Assembly: GCA_037833965.1 (NCBI GenBank)
Contig: AP031356.1
Location: forward strand, 8,702,501 to 8,766,500
From: Marchantia polymorpha subsp. ruderalis
Taxonomy: Eukaryota > Streptophyta > Marchantiopsida > Marchantiales > Marchantiaceae
Length of the DNA stretch: 64,000 nucleotides
Direction: 5' to 3'
The notes beneath the pieces were generated by a model. It saw only the letters and a list, made by a program, of their open reading frames with translations. It searched no databases and was not told where the DNA came from. Numbering within the stretch: position 1 is the stretch's first letter; the number at the start of each line of letters is the position of its first letter. A program made the position numbers and the translations under genes. Positions 19,309-32,885 of this stretch are shown piece after piece.

Positions 19309-21183
19309 AGTGCAAATTCAACGATTCAAACACAAAACGCAAATTTTCTTGCTTCGGCGGCCTTCCGATGTCGTTCTCCAGATCACAGAATATCTTTCTG
19401 CGCGTCCGATGGATGCTCGCATTCGAACTCGAACGCTCGAACGCTCGAACTTCTCGTCCTGACAGCGCCTCCTACTGTCCGACGAACTCGACTGCGACCA
19501 TGGTTGCATGCGCCGTGCTCCGTTGACTAAACGCGGTGCTTTCTCGCAGTCCAAATTGACTGTGGTCCGCATTCGTAGTCACAGTCTTATCTCCACTTAC
19601 ATTTATGCACATGAGCTCCCTATTTTCATCTGTGCTTTCCCATTACTTTTTCGCGTCCCATTTTTTGAGTCGAGAGTTTCATAAACGTGAATAGGTGTTG
19701 TCCGGATTTTAGCATAAAAAATATGACATCTGATACTATGAACAACGTTTGTGAAATATAATGCCACGTGTAATTGTAGTTCATGATTTTTGTTCAAATT
19801 ATGTCCAATGTTTTTTCATTCAATATGCTGTCATCCATATTGAATAACTTCATATCATATACTTAATAATGACTTCGTTTCTTATAAATGTACCACAAAA
19901 TAATTTCACATATATTCCCATCCTCACCATTTAGACTTTGAGATTATAACTGGATGAAAGTACTTCACAAAATCAAACGTTTTTGTTTTTTTAATCTGAA
20001 TAATAAATTCACATCGGTAAAATACGAAATCATTTTTATTCTATAGTTTGATCATTTGGAAATCTTGTGATTTATAATAAATTTACAATACATCAATTTG
20101 AGTTGATAACTTGTAAAGCTGAAATATAATACATACAATTGAGCAATGAACTATTTCTATAAAAACTTGGTAGCAATTTGCAACTTTTACTTCCAGGTTC
20201 AATTTTATACCTTCAAATATCTTATCAAATATCTCTTTTATTGAAAAAATCATCGAGTTTTATCCTTGTTGCATCACATGTCACTTTTAAATTTAGTTTG
20301 ACGAGTCATATGAAAGCATGAATAATCCGTTTAATGATATAAGTCAGAATATGTTATGTTGTATAAAGTTGTGTTGAAATATATGCTCATGACTTATGTG
20401 TATTTATGTGGAGTAAAAATACTTCACATTAGATGTGTATACATTGGATTAAATCTAGCATATTCATCTATTTGAAAACTTGTGTCATAAATGTCAAGTA
20501 ATCATTCATGACTAAATAAAACAAACATGCATAGAATCATAACAATCATAAGTATATATTTTTTCAACATAGTAATTGTTTGATTGATAAAAAAATATAA
20601 ATTATATTGAAAAACAATTATAAATTTAAACTAAAATAATTCTAAACAACTCCTACATAGATTTTTAAAACATGACATTCACTAATGTCATGATAGTAAA
20701 CCTCACAAGAATTTTAGAAAAAGTATGTAACAATAATTCTTTCAAATATAGCTCTAAAACACAATAAAATTTTGTAAGCAATTCAAAGAGTAAAGATTTT
20801 GTTGACCATTTGTTATATGAGGTTATCCATTCCCACAAAGATTTGTAAATACACACTTTTAAAACCAAATTTTGTTCATCTCCATCCTCAAAGAACGTAT
20901 AATATTAATCCATTATTGAGTATATCACTTGATGAAAGCTCATCATAAAACAAATTGTTTGATGGAATCCATCAACTTTCGTTTTACTTGATGGGATACC
21001 ACCGACGACAAATTGTCACAAAGATTTTTTAATACCTTGAGATCATTGTGGATGCAAACACTAGTCCCAACACTAATTCCAGATTGCAGTGGTTGTTGAG
21101 CAAACGACAGCATTCAAGATAACATAGGTTGGAACTATGTATTCTGCTATTTTAGTATAATCGATATCCACATCACCAACCAT
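19309..21183. other. RPB4 upstream region, then AT-rich gene-free sequence
   Basis: The first ~250 bp is mixed in composition, with a repeated CGAACGCT word near 19431, and should hold the RPB4 promoter. From about 19600 to 21180 the sequence is AT-rich with dense stops. ORFs such as 20665-20868 (-) show no known motif. Nothing else is seen. Confidence 0.45.
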
Positions 21184-21478
21184 CTGTCATGTAGTTTTGA
21201 GTCGGCTCATGCATTCTGGGCACTTACTATATTTAGACGTGGAGATAGGGTTCGGGTTACGAGGGGTATACAATCGGGGACGACTCGAAGAACTCGACTC
21301 GACTCGACTCGAGGCTGGAAGCGTTGGGAGCGTAGAGCGACTTTCCCCTTTGCGTCGACCTGGATTCTCCGAGTGTGGAGAGGGTTGGGCTTGACTCATG
21401 TTTGTGACGGTGACGGTTTGTTGCCAGTAGGGTAATCGACCGACGGGAATTCCAGTGGGGAATCTCTCGTACTTTTCA
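21184..21478 (+). repeat. 5'-truncated LTR copy (direct repeat partner of 31846-32131)
   Basis: It begins CTGTCATGTAG and ends CGTACTTTTCA, matching 31846-32131 over nearly its whole length. Long identical blocks include the stretches around 21245-21265, 21340-21375 and 21395-21433. It differs by a (CGACT)n expansion at about 21289-21311. The first ~100 bp of the 3' LTR (TGTGACATTTGAG onward) is missing here. Confidence 0.8.
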
Positions 21479-21859
21479 CTCGAAGAACTGAAGACGTTTT
21501 TTCTCGACTAGAGATTTGAAGATATTGATCGACTGGGAGTGTGGATCATGGGTGACGATCTGGGCCGTCAGTGACAGGAATACTGAGAAAAGTGGTGGAT
21601 TTCGGTCGGTAATCTTCCACGGGGGAGAGGGAAGAATCAGTCCGACCCTTGATTGGTTTAGTTCGTTCGGTTCGCGGGAGGAAGCTGGACTGCTGTGCGG
21701 TGTGGTGGACAGATTGAATCCTTTGAGAATTGGCAATCAGCACACTTTGATTGTCCGAAGATGGAAATCTCAAAAGTATGAGTTTTGGAGATTTCGTGGA
21801 TTGACAGGAACACTCAAGGTGATTAAGATCCGACAAGTACCAAAGCGTCACTTCTTCGC

Positions 21860-22490
21860 ACACATAGGGTTATCAATTGCAGGATCCGCCGATTCCAGCA
21901 GAGAAAACGCTCACATTGGACTGCTTCTTCGCAGCCTCGGGAGTCACCAGAGCAGCGTTGAACGAGTCAATCACCTTGGGGTGGTTGTACTTGTACTGAA
22001 CGCGAGTGTAGGAATTCAGAATAGCAGTGGCAGCGAAATTCACCAACTGCTGCTATATTTTATGAGTTGAGTCTGCGTGGTTGGGGCCAAAATCAGGCTT
22101 GCAATTCGGGAACTTCTGCAGCTCGGGCATGTATTTCAGAGGTCTTTAAGGTCACGAGATTCATGAAGGACTTTTTTCGCTCGACGAATGGAGTGTCGGA
22201 TTCTCGTCGTGCAATAATTCTGTGGCAGCCTTGGCGATTTGTGCTGATAAGTTGCACATATAGTACTGCAATGCTGGTGAGTCGATAGCAACCCTTGTGA
22301 GAGTTTGAGCACAGTAGTAATGAAGGCTATTTTGTCGAAACCTAGCTGCCGCTGCTGCGTATGAAGCTGGAGTAGAATCTCGAAGGTATGGTATAAATTT
22401 ATGAGGTGGTTGCGTTCCTGGATGCTCTTGAGAGAAGAGATCTTCACACCTCGCGATGTGCAATTTGTCAGAAGCTTTTTCTGATGAAGG
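21860..22490 (-). pseudogene. Frameshifted fragment of an unrecognised host-like gene
   Basis: On the minus strand three frames give consecutive protein-like pieces: one with FIPYLRDSTPASYAAAAARF and DSPALQYYMCNLSAQIAK (22463-22161), one with YMPELQKFPNCKPDFGPN, and one with NFAATAILNSYTRVQYKYNH ending FSAGIGGSCN at a stop near 21877. An in-frame stop and at least two frameshifts break it. The composition is coding-like, unlike the flanks, and it runs opposite to the retroelement within whose leader it sits. I do not recognise the family. It may be a captured host transcript or an older gene into which the element inserted. Confidence 0.45.
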
Positions 22491-22825
22491 TTCAAAGCAC
22501 GCTCATATTCTGTTCTCAAGACACAGTGATGACGAGAAATTTATCCGCTCAAATTTTATTGTGTCCTTCCGTGAAGTTTTTCTGATCGATTATCATCGCA
22601 TTTGGACATTCTAAGACCTGGATCGATTGAAGATTAGGTCTAGACGGAAACACGGATAGAATTTGATCTTTGCCCTGAGTCGGTTTCTAGATTACATCTT
22701 ATATTCTCTGTATCGAGTATCAATTAGAATAGAGGATAAGTATCTCTGTAGAAGCCCAGGAAGAGCCCTTAGTGCTCATGAAATCGACTGGAAAGATCCA
22801 CTACAAGTGACTTGTTTAGTTGGCC

Positions 22826-22931
22826 GTGAAAGTTTTGATGTAGAAGTACAGAAAAAATAAAATATAAAACAGACGGGAAGTCGGACGTGAAAGTCTCGGT
22901 GTAGAAGTACAAAAAAAAACAGACGGGAAGT
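22826..22931 (+). repeat. Two tandem ~50-bp direct repeats
   Basis: GTGAAAGT...TGTAGAAGTACA...CAGACGGGAAGT occurs at 22826-22881 and again at 22887-22931. The copies differ mainly in the length of the A-rich middle. Confidence 0.65.
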
Positions 22932-24719
22932 GCAGTAATACGAGTAAGGGTTCATGAATGATCAAAAGCCCACCTGACTGATGTGGCTGAAATCACGTCA
23001 TTCAGGATTTTTAACTGCATGTGATTTTTAACTGAAGATGGTAAAACTTCAAGATCGAGAGAGGAAGGATGAAGAGGCCTTGGTTTAGATGCAGGGGGTG
23101 AATTAGAAAATCAGGTAATCCAAAAGCATTTCTACTAAAAAAGCAAAAGCGAAATGTGAGAACAGTTCAGCGAAAAGAAGTTTCTCATATTCCAACTTTT
23201 CCATTTCTTGATAGTTCCAAATGTGATAAGTTTAGCTTCAGAAGCATTAGTACCGTTGCATGGGACTGTAATTCCATGCTTCTGAGCTTTAGGGGTGATC
23301 TCCGTTGGAAAATACAGGGCCAAAACTCATCGGGTGATATATATCATATCCACACCCGAGTCACCTGCGCTGCATGCAGTTGCCCAGAGCAAACAAGGAC
23401 CTGGTGCACTTTGTCTTCAAAGCTAGTTGGCAGCCACATGGAGTATAATCAGCGCAGTATCATAGTGGACTTGAATTTCAGAAAGTAGTGTGGTGAAAGT
23501 GTACCTTCACTGTACATTGGTGGAGGTAGACATGAAGCTTTTGCAAGTTTACGTATTTGTTTGATTCAGATGTAGACTTGTGGTTCTCTAACATGTCTAG
23601 TTATTCTTAGATAGTGAATAACTTCAGTAAGTGAGTACGTTCAACTTTATCATGTTAGTTTTATAGTCGAAGTTTGCAGTAGGAATCTTTCTAAACTATG
23701 CATTGTCTCAATTTGACAGTGTGAAGATAGTTTACAGGAAGGATAAATATTCACAACTAAGTGAGTTCAGTTGGAGTATAGTGGTAGTGGAGTTAAATTA
23801 CCTCTGTCACTACCCACCATGCTATTAGTATAGTATAAATGGTGAAGGAGTATGTTTCTAGTTGAGTTGCACAAAGGATAGTGAATCATTTAGGTGTTTT
23901 ATTTTAGAGTTAATCTGAGATCTGAACTGTCAGAACCTTTGAAGGCTTCAGTACACATAACTACTTTAGACAAAGTTGATTATATATCAGTCTTCTATAT
24001 TTGTTATTTCTTTCTTGAAAAAAAAAATAGAGAAAGAAAAAAAATTTTGAAAAAAAAAGTAAAGTTTAGAGGTTCAGAATTATAAGAACCTCATCTGAAG
24101 AGGCCGGAAATGTTGCATCCGGTCTCACTTCCTATAGTCTTCAGTTTATGGTGGATTGTGACAGTCCAGCGTGAAGATTCTCTCCGCAACCTGGTGGACG
24201 TGATGTCATTGTAGGCGTTGGAGGCGGAAGGTGACAAGGGCGATGGAGATCGAATCGGGATCGCGAAGCGATGCGATGTTCCGTGTGTTTTGTCTCGTTT
24301 TGTGCTGTGTTTCTTTTAGACTGGAGAGTCGTTGCTAGCTGGTTGCTTGTGTTTGGATACTCTCCAGTCTTGCTTCTTGGAGCGCATCCGTGTAGGGGTG
24401 ACGCTGATTTCCAGAGTAGTTTTACTCCTGTGTGCTGTCGATAGAAGGTTGGACTTGATCATCGGCCGGTCTATCTATGTTTCTCTCACGGTGAGACTGG
24501 AGTGATGACCATTAGACCGTGAAAGTCTTCTTGCTGTGATCCAGGTTAGATTGTCCATACCTCTTAGTTAGTAGGGCTAGAGTAGCTTAGTGCCGCACGA
24601 CGTCAGGTGCACATAGTGTTATTGGATGGAGATCTGGCAGTGGTGTCAGTTGAGGTTTTGTCATCACGGAGCAGTCTAGTGGTCCTGTTGAGGACCGCGG
24701 TGGATTTACGCGGAGTGGG
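22932..24719. other. Retroelement leader, no coding content seen
   Basis: There is no long ORF. The part up to about 24060 is AT-rich. From about 24100 it becomes GC-richer and continuous in style with gag. TGTGACAG at 24157 and a weak initiator-Met-tRNA-like primer site near 24636 (TGGTGTCAG) could mark a second, unrelated 5' LTR, but no matching 3' copy is present. Confidence 0.35.
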
Positions 24720-26190
24720 TTGAGGTATCGGCTACCTTCACCTATCTCGCGAGTTGTTGCGGAGGAGGACCAGAGTATTGCAGACACAGAGTCTTCGCTG
24801 GTGATATCGTCCGGTGTTCCAACCCCATTGATTTGGGACATGGACGAGATGTACGGGGCCGTGAAGGGCCCTCGACGTTATTCTGGTGCAGTAGGCAACA
24901 TCGAGCTCCATGATTTTATTCAGGAGTTTGACACGTGGTGTGATATGCAGTTTCTGCGTAACCCCACATTGTTTACACCCTTCTTTGCGTGGAAGGGGTT
25001 ATTCTAGCATTTGGAGAGGCCTCCCATGGACGATTATCATGAGTTTGGGAGAGATTATGTTGCGGAGATTGATGCATGGAGGCGCCTTTGGTCTCCAAAC
25101 TACTTAATTCATTACTCAAGGTGGGGTGGGTATCAGTGGAGGTGCGAGTAGTAGCATCAGCGAGGGTACCAGTGGAGCAGTTGGCGCATCTGGTACTAGT
25201 ACCAGCAGCGGTACTGTTAGCATTGCCGGTGGCAGCACGAGGGGAGATGCTAGTGGCGTATCTTCGTTTAGCCCCATTCCTGAGTTCTTCCAAAGATTGA
25301 GGAAGAATTATCGGGGGGTGAAGACGGAGAAGTTGAGGAGCCTCCAAGAGTTTGAGCGGAAGACTGGTGAGAGTCTTCGTGAGGCATACACTCGTATGCG
25401 ACGGCTAATCTCGGTTACTCACAGTGTGACTGAGGCACAGGCTATCTAGTACTGGTATCGGATTCTGGACAGAGAGTTGCGGAGGAGAGTGCGTGATGCT
25501 ACTCTCATGAGCGACTCATCACCCACATTAGCCCATGTGTTTGCTCTTTCTAAGAAGATTGAGCTTAACATGGTGGAGGAGAGGGTGATGACGTCTACAT
25601 TTGCGATGGACACGACCACTTCTTCGCGTATCCCACATAGCACAGCACAGTCTCGCCCCATGGGTCGTGGTAGTGGGAGTCGTGGAGGTCATACACGACA
25701 TCTTTCATGTCACGGAGAGCCTAGTGCGCAGCCACCACTGCCTTCATTTTCGGACCAGCCACAGGAACAGCCATGTTGGACATGCGGAGGTAGTCATATG
25801 AGGAAGGATTGTTCCCAGGAGCGAGAGGGACAAACTCCACATGCTAGGCCACAGCCGACACAGGTGACTTGTGATCATTGTCATCGACCGGATCAACCTC
25901 GAGAGCGTTGTTTTGACCTTCATCCTGAGTTGAGATCTGGAGGTAGAGGTCGTGGAGGTGATGCTCCACGAGGCCGAGGTGGTCGAGGTGGCAGAGGCGG
26001 TAGAGGTACCGGTGCCATTGAGCGTACCGCAGCGAGTGCTACTTCCGCCACAGAGAGCGCTATAGCTGCTCGGATTGAGCAGTTGGAGCAGAGGCTTGCT
26101 GCTATGACTGGTCTTGGGGCGAGCACTTCCACATCTTACGAGGGAGAGGATTTCTCCTATTTGGCTAGTGCATCACAGGTTGAGGCATAA
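24720..26190 (+). pseudogene. Gag region with zinc knuckle and RGG-rich tail (gypsy element 1)
   Basis: Three stretches in gypsy-Gag style follow each other, separated by the stops TAG at 25005-25007 and TAG at 25447-25449; both probably were CAG. Helical segments LREAYTRMRRLISVTHSV and LAHVFALSKKIELNMVEE precede a canonical zinc knuckle, CWTCGGSHMRKDC (25774-25812; C-x2-C-x4-H-x4-C). A second one, CDHCHRPDQPRERC, has Gln where His is expected. A Gly/Arg-rich tail (about 25930-26010) and a short coiled coil (RIEQLEQRLAAM) follow. Gag packages element RNA in cytoplasmic particles. The short 26191-26640 gap continues in gag-pol style but is broken by further stops. Confidence 0.8.
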
Positions 26191-26643
26191 GTTGCAGTGA
26201 TTAGAGGTGGTGCTCGCGCTTTAGAGCCACTTGGTGCGACTGTGGAGTTGGATCCTCAAAGGGGTGAGGGTGGACGTCAGTCTAGACTTCCCTAGTCCTT
26301 TTTATTGTCAGAGATGGCTAGCAGTTGATCTATGAGATCTGCACCGCCTAGTGACACTGGAGTGAGAACTGAAGTTCTTACATCATCTGTTGTGGACGCA
26401 AACGTGCCATCTAGTGTAATGATGCGGATGACCACTTAAGTCTTGCGATCTCCATTGTTTTCAGCCACGGAGTTGATGGACTCTGGTATTGATTTGGCTC
26501 AAGTATTTCGGGTAGCAGCCACGTCGTGTGAGCGTGGGAGAGTCGGTGCTACGAGTGCCGAGATACGTGAGGATACGATTGAAGAGCCATCCTCAACGTC
26601 TACATTGTTCGAGGAGATGACTTGACAGGCGGCAGCGGCGAGG

Positions 26644-28701
26644 ATGGAGTCCTTACCAGCTCGCCCAGCCATTGATCGCAAGAATATTGTCCCTAGTGTA
26701 TGTATGGTGGACAACCGAACTGGTCTATTTCGATTAGTGAGTTCTACTGGACATGTGTATGTTCCAGCCAGAGTTTTGCTGGATTCTGGTGCACAGCCCT
26801 TGATGTTGAGCAAGGCTACATGCATTAGTTTGGGTATTCGGAGGTTAGACTTGGAACCTTGTCAATTCCAGATCCAGACATTCCTTGGTGGCGCCAGCGA
26901 TAGGTCGTACTTTATGACCAGAGAGAGCATAGCGGTGCAGTTGAGGCATGTTCATGTTCATGATAGCTCCCAGTTTGAAGTTCGTGCGGTGGTTACATCA
27001 GCAGAGTCATATGATGTGCTTGTTGGTGGAGCTGTATTATATCCGATGGGTTTTCGGATGGACTATTGGTCGGAGACTGCTGTTTATCGTCCAGGTTGGC
27101 AGTCTGGCGATGGACGTCTCAGCGAGCTGCCAGTGAGATTTATTTCTCGAGACCGACCTCTTGGATCTTCATCTGCGGTCTTAGCATCTGTTGCGGGTTT
27201 TAGCGGTGTGCTTACCTGGCCCGATGACTTGTTGGAGGGGAACATGTCTGTCGACGATACCTCAGTCTACGAGGATGTGGAGGAGGTTGTGAGTTTTACA
27301 GCTGCGGTAACTTCACACTTAGATGTTCCACTGTGGAGTTCTTGTCAGACATTACAGTTGGAGGCTGATAGGTTGGTGAAGAAGGCTTGGAGTGAAGCCT
27401 CTTTACCAGCAGAGCCAGAGAAGGCTTCAGTTGATCGGCTAGTTGATGGTTCTAGCGCATTGTCTCCATTAGTTACTACACCTATTGCATGGGAGTATTC
27501 CCCTGAGGGTTTTTGTTTGCTGGATCTTTTTGGTGGGATCAGCACTAGTTTGGCTGCACTGTTGCAGTCAGCTATTCTCGTACGGAGATACTTGTATGTG
27601 AAGAAGGACGAGACTGCACGTCGAGTCTCTTCACGACATGTTGCACAGTTGATGCGGCGTTTCCCTTTGTTATTGCCGCGATCAGCTGTCCGAGGATTCC
27701 AGAAGACGTTGCCTTCATACATTTTGTTGTTGGGGGCGCCAGACCTTGACCGCGTTGGCCATATTGATATGGTGATTGCGGGCTGGCCATATCAAGGACA
27801 CACACGCGCTGGACATGAAACAAGGTTGCATGATCCCAGATCTCGGATGTTTTGGGAGATGATGCGAGTCTTACGTCATCTCCAAATGCAGCAGACACGT
27901 TCTCTAGCGTACATTCTAAAGAACGTACCATTGTTGGGTGTCACTCGGGCCCAGTTGATGGCGAGTGTCCATCAGGTCTAAGCATGGATTGGATCAACAG
28001 TACTGTTGGATGTTGCGAGGGTTGGATCACGGGCTCATCGTGCACGTTTATGGTGGACCAACCTTTTGCCACGTGAAATATTGCGTCATGCCTATGATTC
28101 TGTGCAGCGTGATCCTACACTCACCGTTGACAGTATCTTGGATGTTTTCCGACACTCTAAGGTGGTGAGAGTTGTTGATAGGTCGCCTATGGCGTTGGTG
28201 AACCGCGTAGGTCAATCTCGGATGGCTTCACCTACGTTGTTTAGTTATCCAGCATCACATGCATATCGTGATGGTGGACCTGGACTATTGTGGGATAGTA
28301 CAGTACATCAGTTGATGGAGCCCAACGCTGATGAGAGAGAGCGTGCGATGGGATTTATGACTGGTGCGACCGCAACTGCTTTAGTTTCAGAGGCTTCGCG
28401 TCGTCAAGTTTTGGTTCAAGCTATGAACCTGAACTGCTTGACGTGGATTGTGAGCTTGGGTTTGGCAGAGCAACGCCGTTTGCGCGTTGATTTAGTGATT
28501 AGTACACCACTTGTTAGCTCATTGCATATAGAGACGGTAGTGGCAATGGTTGGGGGCGACAGGCGAGATATTCGTCATCCTTGGAGTTTATGGGACGTGA
28601 CGAAAGGACTTGCCAGAGTTGTAGCCCATGCAGTTGGAGAGGATTCTCATGTGGAGGTGGCTACGAAGGAGGGTACGGGTACCCTTCTTTGCAGTGTGTA
28701 G
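26644..28701 (+). pseudogene. Aspartic protease fused to a DNMT3/DRM-like cytosine-C5 methyltransferase (gypsy element 1)
   Basis: One reading frame runs through, interrupted only by TAA at 27979-27981. The protease comes first: ARVLLDSGAQPLMLSKA, with the D-S-G active site, and SYDVLVGGAVLYPMGF. From about 27511 a C5-methyltransferase fold follows. Motif I is LLDLFGGISTS (SAM binding). Motif IV is IAGWPYQGHTRAG, where Pro-Cys is expected, so the catalytic Cys is Tyr (27790-27792). Motif VI is YILKNVPLLG, with Lys for the ENV Glu (27919-27921). Motif VIII is RAHRARLWWTNLLP, as in the DNMT3 HRARYFWGNLP. The end has EPNADERERAMGF and SEASRRQVLVQAMNLNCLTW, the region of motifs IX-X. The domain spans about 330 residues and is complete in outline. 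An intact relative would methylate cytosines in DNA; this copy cannot. Confidence 0.88.
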
Positions 28702-28718
28702 CGTATCAACCATTGACA

Positions 28719-30240
28719 ATGTCGCCTCCCTCTAGTGTGTCTATGAAGGAGGAATGGGAGCCATTGATTGGTTCCCAGATCACAGGAAAAGAGAGGCGAC
28801 GATTGACACAATTCCTACGAGACAATAGGAGTTGTTTGGCCTTCAGTATGAAGGAGTTGGGTGCGTTGATTGGACCCGGTATACGGATAGAATTGGCTAG
28901 TGATACGCCAATCTTCCGTCGTCCTTATCGATACAGTGAGATGGAGAGATTGTTTGCAAGAGCAAGGAGCGAGCAAGGATTGTTTGTATCAGTGGCGATT
29001 CTTACCCTTTGAGTTGAAAAATGCACCTGCCGAGTTTCAAAGGGTTATGGACGAAATCCTCACGGGGCTAGATTTTGTCAGATGTTACATTGATGATATC
29101 TTGGTGTTTAGTGACACTGTGGAGCAACAACAGATACATTTGCAGATTGTGTTTGAGCGATTTAGGGCTCATGGTTTGAGGTTACATCCTCGGAAGTGTA
29201 AGTTCTTCCAAAAGAAGGTTGAGTACTTGGATCATGTGATATACCCAGGTGGTTTAGGAGTTCAGCAAGCAAAGGTGGAGGCTATTGCACGCATCCCTCC
29301 TCCCACGGATCTGAGTAAAGTTTGTGCATTCATGGGTTTGGCGAACTACTACAGGAGGTATGTGAAGGGATTCAGTGCTATAGCCAAGCCTTTGAACTAG
29401 TTGCTGAAGTCAGATCAGGAGTGGCAATGGGGAGATGAGCAAAAGAGAGCTTTTGTTGAGCTCAAGGCCAGGTAGGTGGCCGCTCCCATCTTGAAGAGAC
29501 CTATCAGAGGTCGTCCATACCAGTTGCACACTGATTGGAGTATGTTGGGACTTGAAGCGGTGTTGACGCAGCGTGAGGATGAGGGCAAGGAGTTTGTGGT
29601 TGCGTACGCTAGTCATTCGAACAATGCAGCGGAGTTGCGGTATAGTTCGTACAAGGGAGAGTGCTTGGCAGCGGAGTCGCGGTATAGTTCGTACAAGGGA
29701 GAGTGCTTGGCAGCGGTGTGGGCTGTGGCACACTTCAGGTGTTACATGTTTGGTACGCAGTTCACCCTTGTTACTGATCATCAACCGCTCAAGTTGTTGA
29801 TGGAGTCCGACAAGCTTAAAGGAAAGCTTGCACGGTGGGCTCTCATCTTACAGGAGTACGATTTTCAGCTAGTGCATAGACCTGAAGTTGCAAACCTGGA
29901 TGCCGATGGTTTGAGTCGAAACCCATGCACTAGCCAGGAGGATGACACTGGAGCTAGATGGCATGATGAGGTTGACAAGGAGATGGTGCCTGGTTGGCAT
30001 GCATCTGCCTTCATGTGTTGGTTATGTGGAAACTCCAGCAGGGAGGATCATCTGACATCTTACTCTAGTCAGAGAGTAGATGGTCGATCTTCAGATCCTG
30101 AGGTTGACGATGGTGGTGTGGATCAGCGTGATGTTCACGATGATGCATTGGTGTTGGAGTTCCTACGGACCATCATGGTGCCATGCACAGTGGGTGCCAA
30201 GGAGCGAGATCGTGTTCTCCAACGGGCGAAGAGATACTGA
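28719..30240 (+). pseudogene. Reverse transcriptase/RNase H with an internal deletion (gypsy element 1)
   Basis: The RT amino end (LASDTPIFRRPYRYSEMER, to about 28946) breaks off and resumes at QWRFLPFELKNAPAEFQRVM (about 29000). The fingers and the motif A aspartate region are missing. Motif C, CYIDDILVFS, is intact (about 29086-29100), as are the thumb and connection (RIPPPTDLSKVCAFMGLANYY). Stops lie at 29398-29400 and near 29473. RNase H follows with LHTDWSMLGLEAVLTQ and LVTDHQPLKLL, and contains a 42-bp tandem duplication. The tail (VPGWHASAFMCWLCGNS) leads to the integrase. Loss of motif A makes the polymerase inactive. Confidence 0.85.
29637..29720 (+). repeat. 42-bp perfect-period tandem duplication in RNase H
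   Basis: The unit starting GCGGTATAGTTCGTACAAG at 29637 repeats at 29679, duplicating RYSSYKGECLAA in frame. It inserts 14 residues into the conserved RNase H segment. Confidence 0.9.
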
Positions 30241-31581
30241 TTGGAGGGATCACATGTTCTCCGAGTCTGGGAGGACGGTAGGGTACAAGTAGTACCACAT
30301 CCAGCTCAGAGAGCACTCATTGTGAGGCATGCTCATGAGGAGTTGGGATATTTTGGAGTGAAGCGTACATATAGCTTACTCCTTGGTCAGTATTGCTGGC
30401 GTGGTATGCATACTCAGGTACGGCAGTTGGTATCACGTTGCATGGTTTGTGATCGGATGAGGGCATCATTCAATGCCCCGACACCAGTGTTACATCCATT
30501 ACCCATCATGGGGTTGAGTTACCGTTGGAGATTGAACTTTGCTGGACCACTACCTTTGATTGTATGACATCATCGGTATGTGTTGGTGATGGTGGAGCAT
30601 TTCTCCAAGTGGATTGAGTTGGTGGCATTACCAGACAAGGCGAGTGAGGGAGTAGCGTATGCTTTACTTGACAGAGTGCTTAGTCACTAAGGTGCACCAG
30701 CTCAGGTGTTGACCGATCAGGGGACGGAGTTTCACGGTGAGTTTCAGGTCTTGTGTGACAAGGCGCTGATTGATCATCGGATCACGTAGCGAGATCATCC
30801 AAAGGCGGATGGTTTGGCTGAACGTGTTGTACATACGATGAAGAGAGTGTTGCGCAAGTATGGCCTACAGAAAGTTCATCTTGGGGACTGGGATATCCAG
30901 CTACCGTGGTTGGCCATGGGATACCGATTCAGTCGTCAAGCATCCTTGGCTTCCTTCTCACCATATTTTCTATTGTACAGCCGAGATCTAGACTTGCCAA
31001 AATCGATTCGTCGTGAGTCTAGCAAGGTGGTGAACCTTGATGACCCGAATATGTGGGTGGGAGTATGTTCTCAGCGTGCAGAGCTCTTTCGGAGAGTTAT
31101 GCCTGCAGCGTTTGAGAATCTTGCGATTGCTCAACATAGAGATACTTTGCGATATGCAACCATTCGGGGAGTAGGTTATCGACCATCGATTCGTAGATTC
31201 CATGTAGGAGAGTACGTCTATCTACAGCAGACTGCACCGACGACATTGGATGTGACGGCGGGACGCACAATCTTGCGAGTGCGAGAGGTGTTACCTTCTG
31301 GAGTTCTCTTGTTGGAGGGTCGTGACGGCGTTGTTTTGAAGGATCATGTGCGCAATTGTGCGCCATGCCACCTCCCAAACATAGATGGTACCATGGACCC
31401 AAGCTTAGCAATAGTACGTGCTGGCTTGAGGTGCATGCTATGTGGGTCCGCTGGTCAGGCGGCCCGTATGTTGGTGTGTGATAGGTGTTCTAGGGGATGG
31501 CACATGTTGTGCATGACTCCACCTATCAATGTTATTCCGGCTGGACGATGGGTTTGTCCTCGATGTACTTCAAAGGGGTAG
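30241..31581 (+). pseudogene. Integrase with C-terminal PHD finger (gypsy element 1)
   Basis: The H2C2 zinc-binding domain is visible (RHAHEELGYFGVKRTY ... SRCMVCDRM). In the catalytic core the first acidic residue is Asn in WRLNFAGPLP (30535-30537), while LTDQGTEFHGEF and GLAERVVHTMKRVLRKYG keep the second Asp and the Glu. Three stops interrupt the core (TGA near 30565, TAA near 30688, TAG near 30787). From 30814 the frame stays open through the GPY/F-like region (FHVGEYVYLQQTAP, VREVLPSGVLLLEG). It ends in a complete C4HC3 PHD finger at about 31432-31575: CMLC, CDRC, HMLC, CPRC with the usual Trp before the last pair. PHD fingers bind histone H3 tails, so it may steer integration; this is inference. 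Confidence 0.87.
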
Positions 31582-31732: not shown

Positions 31733-31746
31733 CTAGGGGGGCGAGT
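31733..31746 (+). other. Polypurine tract of gypsy element 1
   Basis: AGGGGGGCGAG lies immediately before the LTR start TGTGACA at 31747, the normal place for the plus-strand priming site. Confidence 0.55.
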
Positions 31747-32131
31747 TGTGACATTTGAGTGTGTACTCTTTCGCGCCTTATATGTGTGTATGTGAGTAAC
31801 ATGTCAACGATGTAGAGTGTATGGCGATATGTATTCGCACAACAGCTGTCATGTAGTTTCGAGTAGGCTCACGCAGTCTAGGCACTTTCTATATTTAGAC
31901 GTAGAAATAGGGTTCGGGTTACGAGGGGTATACAGTCGGGAAAGAACGTTAGTTCTTCGAGTCGAGCCTGGAAGCCTTGGGAGCGTAGAGCAACTTTCCC
32001 CTTTGCGTCGACCTGGATTCTCCGAGTGTGGAGTGGATTGGGCTTGACTCATGTTTGTGACGGTGACGGTTTGTTGCCAGTAGGGTAATAGACCGACGGG
32101 ATTTCCAGTGGAGAATCTCCCGTACTTTTCA
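31747..32131 (+). repeat. 3' LTR of gypsy element 1 (~385 bp)
   Basis: It begins TGTGACATTTGAG just after a polypurine tract and ends CGTACTTTTCA, giving the TG...CA termini of LTRs. Positions 31846-32131 match the copy at 21184-21478. Confidence 0.75.
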
Positions 32132-32132
32132 G

Positions 32133-32246
32133 TTGTGACATTTGAGTGTGTACTCTCTCGCGCCTTATATGTGTGTATGTGTGCGTATGTGTATGTGAGT
32201 AGTATGTCAGCGATGTAGAGTGTATGGCGATATGTATTCGCACGAC
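32133..32246 (+). repeat. Partial second copy of the LTR start, in tandem
   Basis: TTGTGACATTTGAGTGTG through ATGTATTCGCACGAC repeats the first ~100 bp of the LTR (31746-31845), with an extra TGCGTATGTGTATG-type insertion. It abuts the 3' LTR end and stops where the LTR body would begin. Confidence 0.75.
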
Positions 32247-32387
32247 ACATCGGTACTTGAAATCTAAGAGCTGATCTGCGCACTTAATTCTAGTATTCAT
32301 TGATGAGCTTGTTGTTTGTTAAGAAACTTCACGTAGACATTTGCAATCATGTTTGGATAATTCTAGTAATTTGCAAGAAAGAAGTTT

Positions 32388-32885
32388 TTGGTTTTGTGAG
32401 GAGTTGAATTTTGATAGAACTCTTTTTTGTTGCAAACATCTTCTTGTAGTTTGCAATTCAAATAGAATTTGAGCACACCACATCAAAATTCAGTTCAACT
32501 TTAGTTGTGGGATATCACGGTCATACTAGTTGGAATCGTTTGTGAAAAACCACGGTAATTTGCACAACAAAAGTTCTTCGTTTAACAAGGAGTTGAACTA
32601 TGACAAAACTCAGTCTAGAAGCGAACATCTTACTATAGTTTGCAAACTCAAAAAGAATTTGAGCACATCAAATTAAATTTCAGTCATAAAACCCAGTCTA
32701 GAAGCGAACATTTTACTATAGTTTGCAAACTCAAAAAGAATTTGAGCACATCAAATTAAATTCCAGTCCAAAACTCAGTCTAGAGGCGAACATCTTACTA
32801 TAGTTTGCAAACTCAAATAGAATTTGAGCACATCAAATTAAATTCCAGTCCAACGTTAGTGCTGGGATCTCAAGGTCATACTTGC
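32388..32885 (+). repeat. Tandem repeat array, ~83-bp units
   Basis: Three near-identical ~83-bp units start at 32611, 32694 and 32776 (CAGTCTAGA...GCGAACAT...TATAGTTTGCAAACTCAAA...GAATTTGAGCACATCAAATT). A more diverged copy with the same order of words lies at 32388-32500. The flanks also repeat: GGGATATCACGGTCATAC near 32510 and GGGATCTCAAGGTCATAC near 32867. Confidence 0.85.

Follow-up and report, generated by a model that had tools for sequence, protein, structure and literature searches.

Plants silence mobile DNA by methylation, so a mobile element that carries its own methyltransferase is a paradox. Retrotransposon-borne DNMTs have been reported in dinoflagellate and Klebsormidium elements (PMC5890265, main text), and the available text of PMC12344493, citing de Mendoza et al. 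2018, locates some DNMT3s of streptophytes and dinoflagellates in retrotransposons. According to the main text of PMC5890265, the enzyme of dinoflagellate SymbioDIRS-Dnmt3 methylates CG in yeast, and that of KnitGypsy-Dnmt3 from Klebsormidium nitens showed no activity in yeast, a result the authors call inconclusive; they also point out that elements lacking a DNMT are mobile in those genomes as well, so that carrying the domain brings no obvious gain. The available text of the Marchantia methylome paper lists MpMET, MpCMTa/b and MpDRMa/b (PMC5784723), and the main text of the plant LTR survey PMC6317226 contains none of the words "Marchantia," "PHD," and "methyltransferase." In the open PMC literature, outside which lie most subscription papers, bioRxiv, and supplements, we found no such liverwort, moss, or chlorophyte element described.

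The element described here lies in a 64,000-nucleotide stretch of Marchantia polymorpha subsp. ruderalis DNA (the window). KnitGypsy-Dnmt3, as presented in the main text of PMC5890265, resembles it in combining the gypsy domain set with an unrearranged DNMT3, in its absence of introns, conserved key residues, and purifying selection (Ka/Ks under 0.2 in the Klebsormidium element), and in its DIRS-like repeats on gypsy domains, the liverwort gypsy likewise having split repeats. The Klebsormidium DNMT is placed in the Pol polyprotein ORF, whereas the liverwort DNMT precedes a UAG in front of the reverse transcriptase (RT) and is joined to Pol only via stop read-through; the liverwort element also has a PHD finger and a land-plant host, and neither "PHD" nor "liverwort" occurs in that main text. 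Shared features described in PMC5890265 support a putative kinship between the two. SymbioDIRS-Dnmt3 also carries a DNMT3 domain in a retrotransposon polyprotein but is a DIRS element with a tyrosine recombinase, in contrast to the DDE integrase and target site duplications (TSDs) of the liverwort element (PMC5890265, main text). Tf1/Sushi elements and plant Tcn1 chromoviruses share self-priming by the RNA 5' end, for which the liverwort counterpart is putative, and a chromatin-reading domain after the integrase, a chromodomain there and a PHD finger here; DNMT is not mentioned in the available text of PMC7175516 or PMC6317226. New relative to the known retrotransposon DNMT3s are the land-plant home, the Gag-side position, the PHD finger, and the unusual ends.

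The window copy

The copy in the window is composed of the following features, read on the + strand except for the two strandless target site duplications.

21181-21184: target site duplication, 5' copy (CATC; same letters at 32248-32251)
21185-21477, +: terminal repeat A1, element 5' end (TGTC...; about 88% self-match to A2; end read)
21478-21489, +: putative primer-binding site ACTCGAAGAACT, complement of a 12-mer within repeat A of other copies
21490-24653, +: long mosaic 5' leader (compared with young-copy leaders)
24654-26643, +: gag region, broken by indels (weak Pfam gag match, under cut-off)
25774-25812 and 25870-25911, +: two CCHC-like knuckles in gag (motif reading by eye)
26644-27129, +: aspartic protease, approximate limits (LLDSGAQ at 26776-26796; weak PF13975 match, under cut-off)
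27511-28473, +: DNMT3-type C5 cytosine methyltransferase domain, inactivated (motifs, PF00145, alignment to other copies)
27979-27981, +: in-frame stop within the DNMT domain (sequence reading)
28704-28712, +: leaky-stop site (TAT CAA CCA here, TAG CAA CCA in 26 other copies)
28707-29400, +: reverse transcriptase (Pfam RT E 1e-20; about 100 codons deleted at 28970)
29476-30240, +: RNase H and connection region (PF17917/PF17919; RNase H E 3e-34)
30241-31431, +: integrase with H2C2 zinc finger, core, and C-terminal part (zinc finger E 6e-14; core motifs 30712-30822)
31432-31572, +: C-terminal PHD finger (PF00628 E 6e-11; PHD of an intact copy compared with PDB)
31742-31844, +: repeat B1 (repeat comparison)
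31847-32130, +: repeat A2, joined to B1 via ACA-GC-TGTC (GACA-GC-TGTC in other copies)
32131-32247, +: repeat B2, element 3' end (...GACA; repeat comparison, end read)
32248-32251: target site duplication, 3' copy (CATC), pairing with 21181-21184

The earlier note had read methyltransferase motifs in one frame with the protease, and translation of 26644-28701 bears this out, with DLFGGIST within 27514-27546, GWPYQGH within 27778-27801, KNVPLL within 27913-27936, motif VIII RAHRARLWWTNLLP within 28024-28071, and a IX/X-like tail at 28315-28434. The PF00145 profile matches the window copy with E = 5e-4, at 20 bits, just under the Pfam cut-off of 22; an intact copy of the same element scores 39.6 bits over the whole frame and 43 bits over the domain, so that the resemblance exceeds chance and the earlier observation proves stronger than first stated. 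Motif IV of the window copy reads PYQ, with the catalytic Cys replaced by Tyr, and motif VI reads KNV, with Glu replaced by Lys. Both residues are present in all 32 other copies read, which were picked from the PF00145 list with a resulting bias toward a conserved motif IV; the strings in the earlier note are thus broken forms.

Relative to young copies, gag of the window copy carries a 24-base deletion and one inserted base. Its other lesions are an insertion of 9 bases, the internal DNMT stop, and a 1-base deletion 3' of the DNMT; its RT lacks about 100 codons. Judged from its letters, the window copy is dead. C-to-T and G-to-A together make up 117 of the 216 changes (54%) private to it at sites where nine young copies agree, and 96 of the 176 private changes (55%) in those nine. 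This share would be compatible with methylated DNA, but it does not set the window copy apart. At these shares the copies were not spared that decay, which counts against the explanation favored below.

The leader in front of gag (about 1.6 to more than 3 kb) appears as a mosaic of blocks in the window (21490-24236) and in L016-L034. Alignment of the window leader to five young-copy leaders is limited to the last 400-465 bp. Blocks that some copies share at up to 99.8% are missing from others with about 97% likeness in the DNMT region, as would result from a swapping of leader modules by template switching.

Intact copies and a conserved stop

The protease-DNMT-RT order that the earlier note had envisaged for intact copies was found in the host genome, where other copies look intact. 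Frame 1 of L009 is composed of gag, two CCHC-like knuckles, protease, and DNMT, followed by UAG CAA CCA. Frame 2 follows the stop directly in the same frame and is whole in L012, comprising RT, RNase H, integrase, and PHD. In the sequence of these copies the DNMT is the last domain of frame 1 (gag-protease-DNMT) and the PHD finger the last of frame 2 (RT-RNaseH-integrase-PHD). The order of protease, RT, RNase H, and an rve-type integrase in the polyprotein supports assignment of the element to Ty3/gypsy, and the rve core is above the Pfam cut-off in relatives P0028 and P0029.

The stop is TAG followed by CAACCA in all ten long copies, and the next stop lies 1042-1045 codons further on in seven of them and sooner in three. 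TAGCAACCA is found in 26 of the 32 copies read at the DNMT (five end before the site and one is rearranged there) and is also kept in a subfamily of 90% identity whose neighboring bases differ. Leaky stops of the tobacco mosaic virus type have the form UAG-CAR-YYA. Given that the context of the UAG is conserved across copies and resembles this known type, its read-through is likely. The DNMT, lying before a leaky stop, would therefore be on the abundant Gag side.

Class of the methyltransferase and selection

The presence of a DNMT3-type enzyme within a Ty3/gypsy element of a land plant is supported by sequence profiles, by the predicted structure, by copies that keep the domain in frame, by selection, and by a protein of Sphagnum fallax. 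The earlier designation "DNMT3/DRM-like" holds in its first half, on profile, predicted fold, and motif order, and fails in its second, the motifs not being rearranged. Intact copies have the C5-methyltransferase motif order I, IV (PCQ), VI (ENV), VIII, IX, X. DRM identity was rejected on the order I-IV-VI-VIII-X, since DRM has VI-X before I-IV; the host DRM on L014 is, by reading, rearranged. The element DNMT is nearer DNMT3 than DNMT1, DNMT2, or bacterial enzymes. Profile and predicted fold are nearest the DNA enzymes DNMT3A/B, DNMT2 being lower by profile, and ten divergent members all keep the catalytic Cys, the ENV Glu, and an HRxR motif unchanged. Human DNMT3A and DNMT3B share the predicted fold and motif order at about 19-24% identity, but the stretch between motifs I and IV is longer in the element (by eye), and the PWWP and ADD domains are absent beside its DNMT.

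Among nine young copies dN/dS is 0.256 for the DNMT, 0.269 for gag N, and 0.100 for the protease (PR), the DNMT being hardly below gag N, a point against the explanation favored below, and PR alone clearly lower; for nine copies against L034 it is 0.175-0.207 over DNMT plus tail. Codon comparison of this kind shows purifying selection on the DNMT, with its catalytic residues kept. Between L034 and the nine young copies, synonymous divergence is 0.29 in the DNMT and 0.18 in the tail, against 0.50-0.66 in gag, NC, PR, and linker, and this lower divergence suggests that the DNMT-tail segment was exchanged between subfamilies.

The family in the genome

The genome searched comprises 241 Mb in 9 contigs, one of 5.6 Mb. 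A PF00145 profile search gave at least 123 scored matches among 290 candidates, and 32 of the 34 examined are the element's DNMT by DNA. By reading, the top match lies in a host DNMT3-like gene and the second in a host DRM; most remaining matches have the same profile span as the element's. Open frames 1351-1365 codons long contain 24 of the 123, among which the window copy is absent. Of the named proteins, hypothetical ones from Marchantia polymorpha come closest to an intact copy, at up to 94-95% identity.

DNA searches gave 410 first-look candidates with a DNMT query and 416 with an RT-start query, 40 of each being scored. The earlier note had allowed that other copies might lack the segment. 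A whole or partial DNMT is present in every one of the 40 RT copies listed, out of 416 candidates: 35 have a listed DNMT match upstream, and the other five comprise two with a whole and three with a partial DNMT. Among these 40, no DNMT-less sister family was found in the genome. The DNMT is in the same frame in all ten long copies.

In copy L061 (G000:C5:26522183-26523982) an internal deletion begins in gag and ends late in the DNMT; this is possibly a non-autonomous form. Also frequent in the genome is another gypsy family, to which L056 (G000:C4:15455600-15460200) and many of 150 listed rows belong; its frame has 1157 codons, and some of its copies stand in tandem.

Ends, split repeats, and putative self-priming

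Elements start with TGTC and finish with GACA, and 4-bp target duplications flank all four copies with both ends read (CATC in the window, GATG in L026/L027, TCTT in L055/L017, and TCTT in L034/L035). Tf1/Sushi elements and Tcn1 chromoviruses have ordinary LTRs. Here the repeats are split as A1 ... B1-A2-B2, the 5' end being A and the 3' end B, in departure from classical LTRs. The 3' repeat state among ten copies is B1 only in two, B-A-B in seven (the window copy is B-A-B), and B-A'-B-A-B in one; L029, with B-A-B, has an extra lone B about 720 bp further on. Likeness of A1 to A2 is about 88% in the window, 98.8% (part only) in L020/L021, 100% in L026/L027, and 93.8% in L034/L035. The B/A junction GACA-GC-TGTC is a palindrome. 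GACAGCTGTCATG has 185 matches in the genome on the two strands, against 2 for a reversed control; at least five of the 100 places listed are palindromes counted on both strands and are not B/A junctions.

A simple reading of these sequences is that of a conventional B-A LTR whose B/A junction was the point of opening of one-, two-, or three-LTR circles or concatemers. DIRS/PAT elements also have split repeats, which arise there by another, tyrosine-recombinase mechanism. Such an origin by other means lends some weight to the alternative that circles had no part, A and B being a cut-up conventional LTR whose A-B units vary in number by ordinary deletion or recombination. The liverwort element departs from DIRS/PAT in having integrase domains and 4-bp TSDs in four of four copies, and a Pfam scan of nine window frames gave no tyrosine recombinase. 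We regard the cut-up LTR as rather unlikely, however, in view of the number of extra A-B units (none in two of ten copies, one in seven, and two in one), and of one copy without and one with two extra units that have the same exact ends and matching 4-bp TSDs; deletion would not yield such neatness.

Directly 3' of A1, ACTCGAAGAACT is the complement of AGTTCTTCGAGT in repeat A, which lies about 30 nt past a TATA-like box (by eye, the transcript start being guessed from the box). Complementarity of 11-12 nt is found in three of the four complete A1 copies (L055, L026, and, at 11 nt, L034) and is lost in the window A1, the complement of ACTCGAAGAACT being kept in the window by A2 only (31952); the partial A1 of L020 has one mismatch. 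No tRNA primer site was seen by eye after A1, the window containing no tRNA gene for comparison. In Tf1 the RNA 5' end pairs with a site after the 5' repeat (PMC7175516, available text), and self-priming is predicted for plant Tcn1 and TAR elements (PMC6317226, main text).

Immediately downstream of the element, 32366-32882 contains short direct repeats that match over 68-167 bp.

Proposed cycle and alternatives

The interpretation we favor, with moderate confidence, is that the copy in the window is a dead member of a Ty3/gypsy-type family with a de novo-type cytosine methyltransferase (DNMT3 fold) of its own, and that the enzyme, made on the Gag side, would be packaged and methylate the element's own DNA. 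Occasional UAG read-through would yield a Gag-PR-DNMT-RT-RH-IN-PHD product, and the stop arrangement would supply the methyltransferase at a Gag-like dose, packed in the particle. Reverse transcription is predicted to be primed by the RNA's own 5' end, folded back on the site after A1, and the double-stranded DNA, partly circular or concatenated, would be cut at the palindromic B/A junction. The DDE integrase would then insert the DNA, with the PHD finger guiding it to a histone tail. Either within the particle or soon after insertion, the DNMT may methylate the new DNA, making it resemble resident DNA; this methylation of the element's own DNA is the least certain step.

That a host DNMT3 fragment landed by chance in one copy and plays no role would fit the broken active site of the window copy, but the domain is present in the 32 copies read, in frame in all long copies and at least in part in every listed RT copy, it is under purifying selection, and the S. 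fallax protein has the order DNMT-RT-IN. We reject a passenger insertion as vanishingly improbable on the 32 copies, the shared frame, and selection. An active DNMT might instead be directed at the host, perturbing the host's methylome or its silencing genes as a counter-defence, or slowing the element's own spread and so earning host tolerance. The Gag-side position would predict much enzyme per particle, the near-identical elements are many, and host-methylome effects and slowed transposition are both named as options in the main text of PMC5890265. Fusion into the particle polyprotein points rather to packaged nucleic acid, and we consider a host-directed role unlikely.

DNMT2-type C5 enzymes act on tRNA, and the domain here is fused behind the protease and zinc knuckles, as would suit retention for nucleic-acid binding (RNA chaperoning, RNA or tRNA methylation, or primer placement) in place of DNA methylation; RNA methylation has been raised for the DNMTs of LINEs (PMC5890265, main text). 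The invariant catalytic Cys, ENV Glu, and HRxR, together with the closeness to DNMT3A/B, argue against this role, which we judge quite improbable.

Relatives in the green lineage

A protein search with an intact copy returned 49 proteins, including ones from S. fallax, Chromochloris (from the database tag), and Monoraphidium. Calypogeia fissa, Sphagnum troendelagicum, and Marchantia paleacea are among the best 120 of 250 in a DNMT-profile search, the three proteins checked having the DNMT part alone, and a Chromochloris-DNMT search gave 120 proteins, including Haematococcus, Pleodorina, and Scenedesmus. As all queries were DNMT-based, DNMT-less relatives were unable to appear. No protein named Klebsormidium is in these lists (the 49, the best 120 of 250, and the 120 of the Chromochloris-DNMT search), and a search of IMG/VR found no relatives.

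When 282 proteins (281 found and one translated) were scored with purpose-built profiles, the DNMT came after RT in 97, of which 78 are RT-DNMT-IN-PHD (including Haematococcus, Pleodorina, and Chromochloris), and before RT in nine, from Marchantia, S. fallax, and metagenomes; RT is absent from 31 that have DNMT-IN, 145 show the DNMT alone, and 106 carry a PHD. Both domain orders were confirmed by Pfam in examples. The DNMT tree has 76 rows, with 79 of 170 domains more than 85% complete, near-duplicate Marchantia rows excluded, and a second subfamily and one host gene added. Marchantia groups with Calypogeia and metagenome rows (12 rows, 100/100); a 46-row group holds bryophyte rows (99/96), RT position being visible in few of the 46; and a 24-row group holds RT-DNMT-IN rows (93/97, drawn open). 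P0029, P0043, and P0049, with DNMT before RT, fall outside both of these larger groups. As to an origin from the host DNMT3, a very long branch is all that connects the host-like gene on L015 to the rest.

The RT+IN tree, whose 30 rows comprise one in three of the 63 usable RT-DNMT-IN-PHD rows together with named ones and exclude P0041, places the "before RT" rows deepest with weak support, and the IN-only tree leaves the branching of relatives unresolved; the sole outgroup of the RT and IN trees is one DNMT-less gypsy from the same genome. These trees establish neither one capture followed by a move nor several captures. We tentatively entertain a green-lineage gypsy clade, spanning chlorophytes (volvocine ones included), liverworts, and Sphagnum, that may combine a DNMT3 writer with a PHD reader. 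The bryophyte writer would have been moved to, or kept on, the Gag side of a leaky stop and be made in bulk, and circular or concatenated DNA with its palindromic B/A junction would be the integrase substrate, methylated before chromosome entry. If true, self-methylation would be a long-standing, stable, and widespread strategy of retrotransposons, not one peculiar to two algal lineages. The printed cases found are algal, and the liverwort family is abundant, partly intact, and young. A Marchantia-type liverwort is a genetically workable land plant with known methylomes, in which the self-methylation idea would be directly testable. Enzymes borne by elements may also have entered counts of DNMT3 and studies of the methylome in liverworts and green algae.

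In P0030, P0041, and P0049, 250-300 C-terminal residues past the PHD look conserved, with motifs including DPWC and APPL or SPWF; this region has no Pfam match, and we take it to resemble an adenine methyltransferase. The eukaryotic-type elements P0051 and P0226 occur in metagenome bins named bacterial (Obscuribacterales and Minisyncoccia) and are probably on mis-binned contigs.
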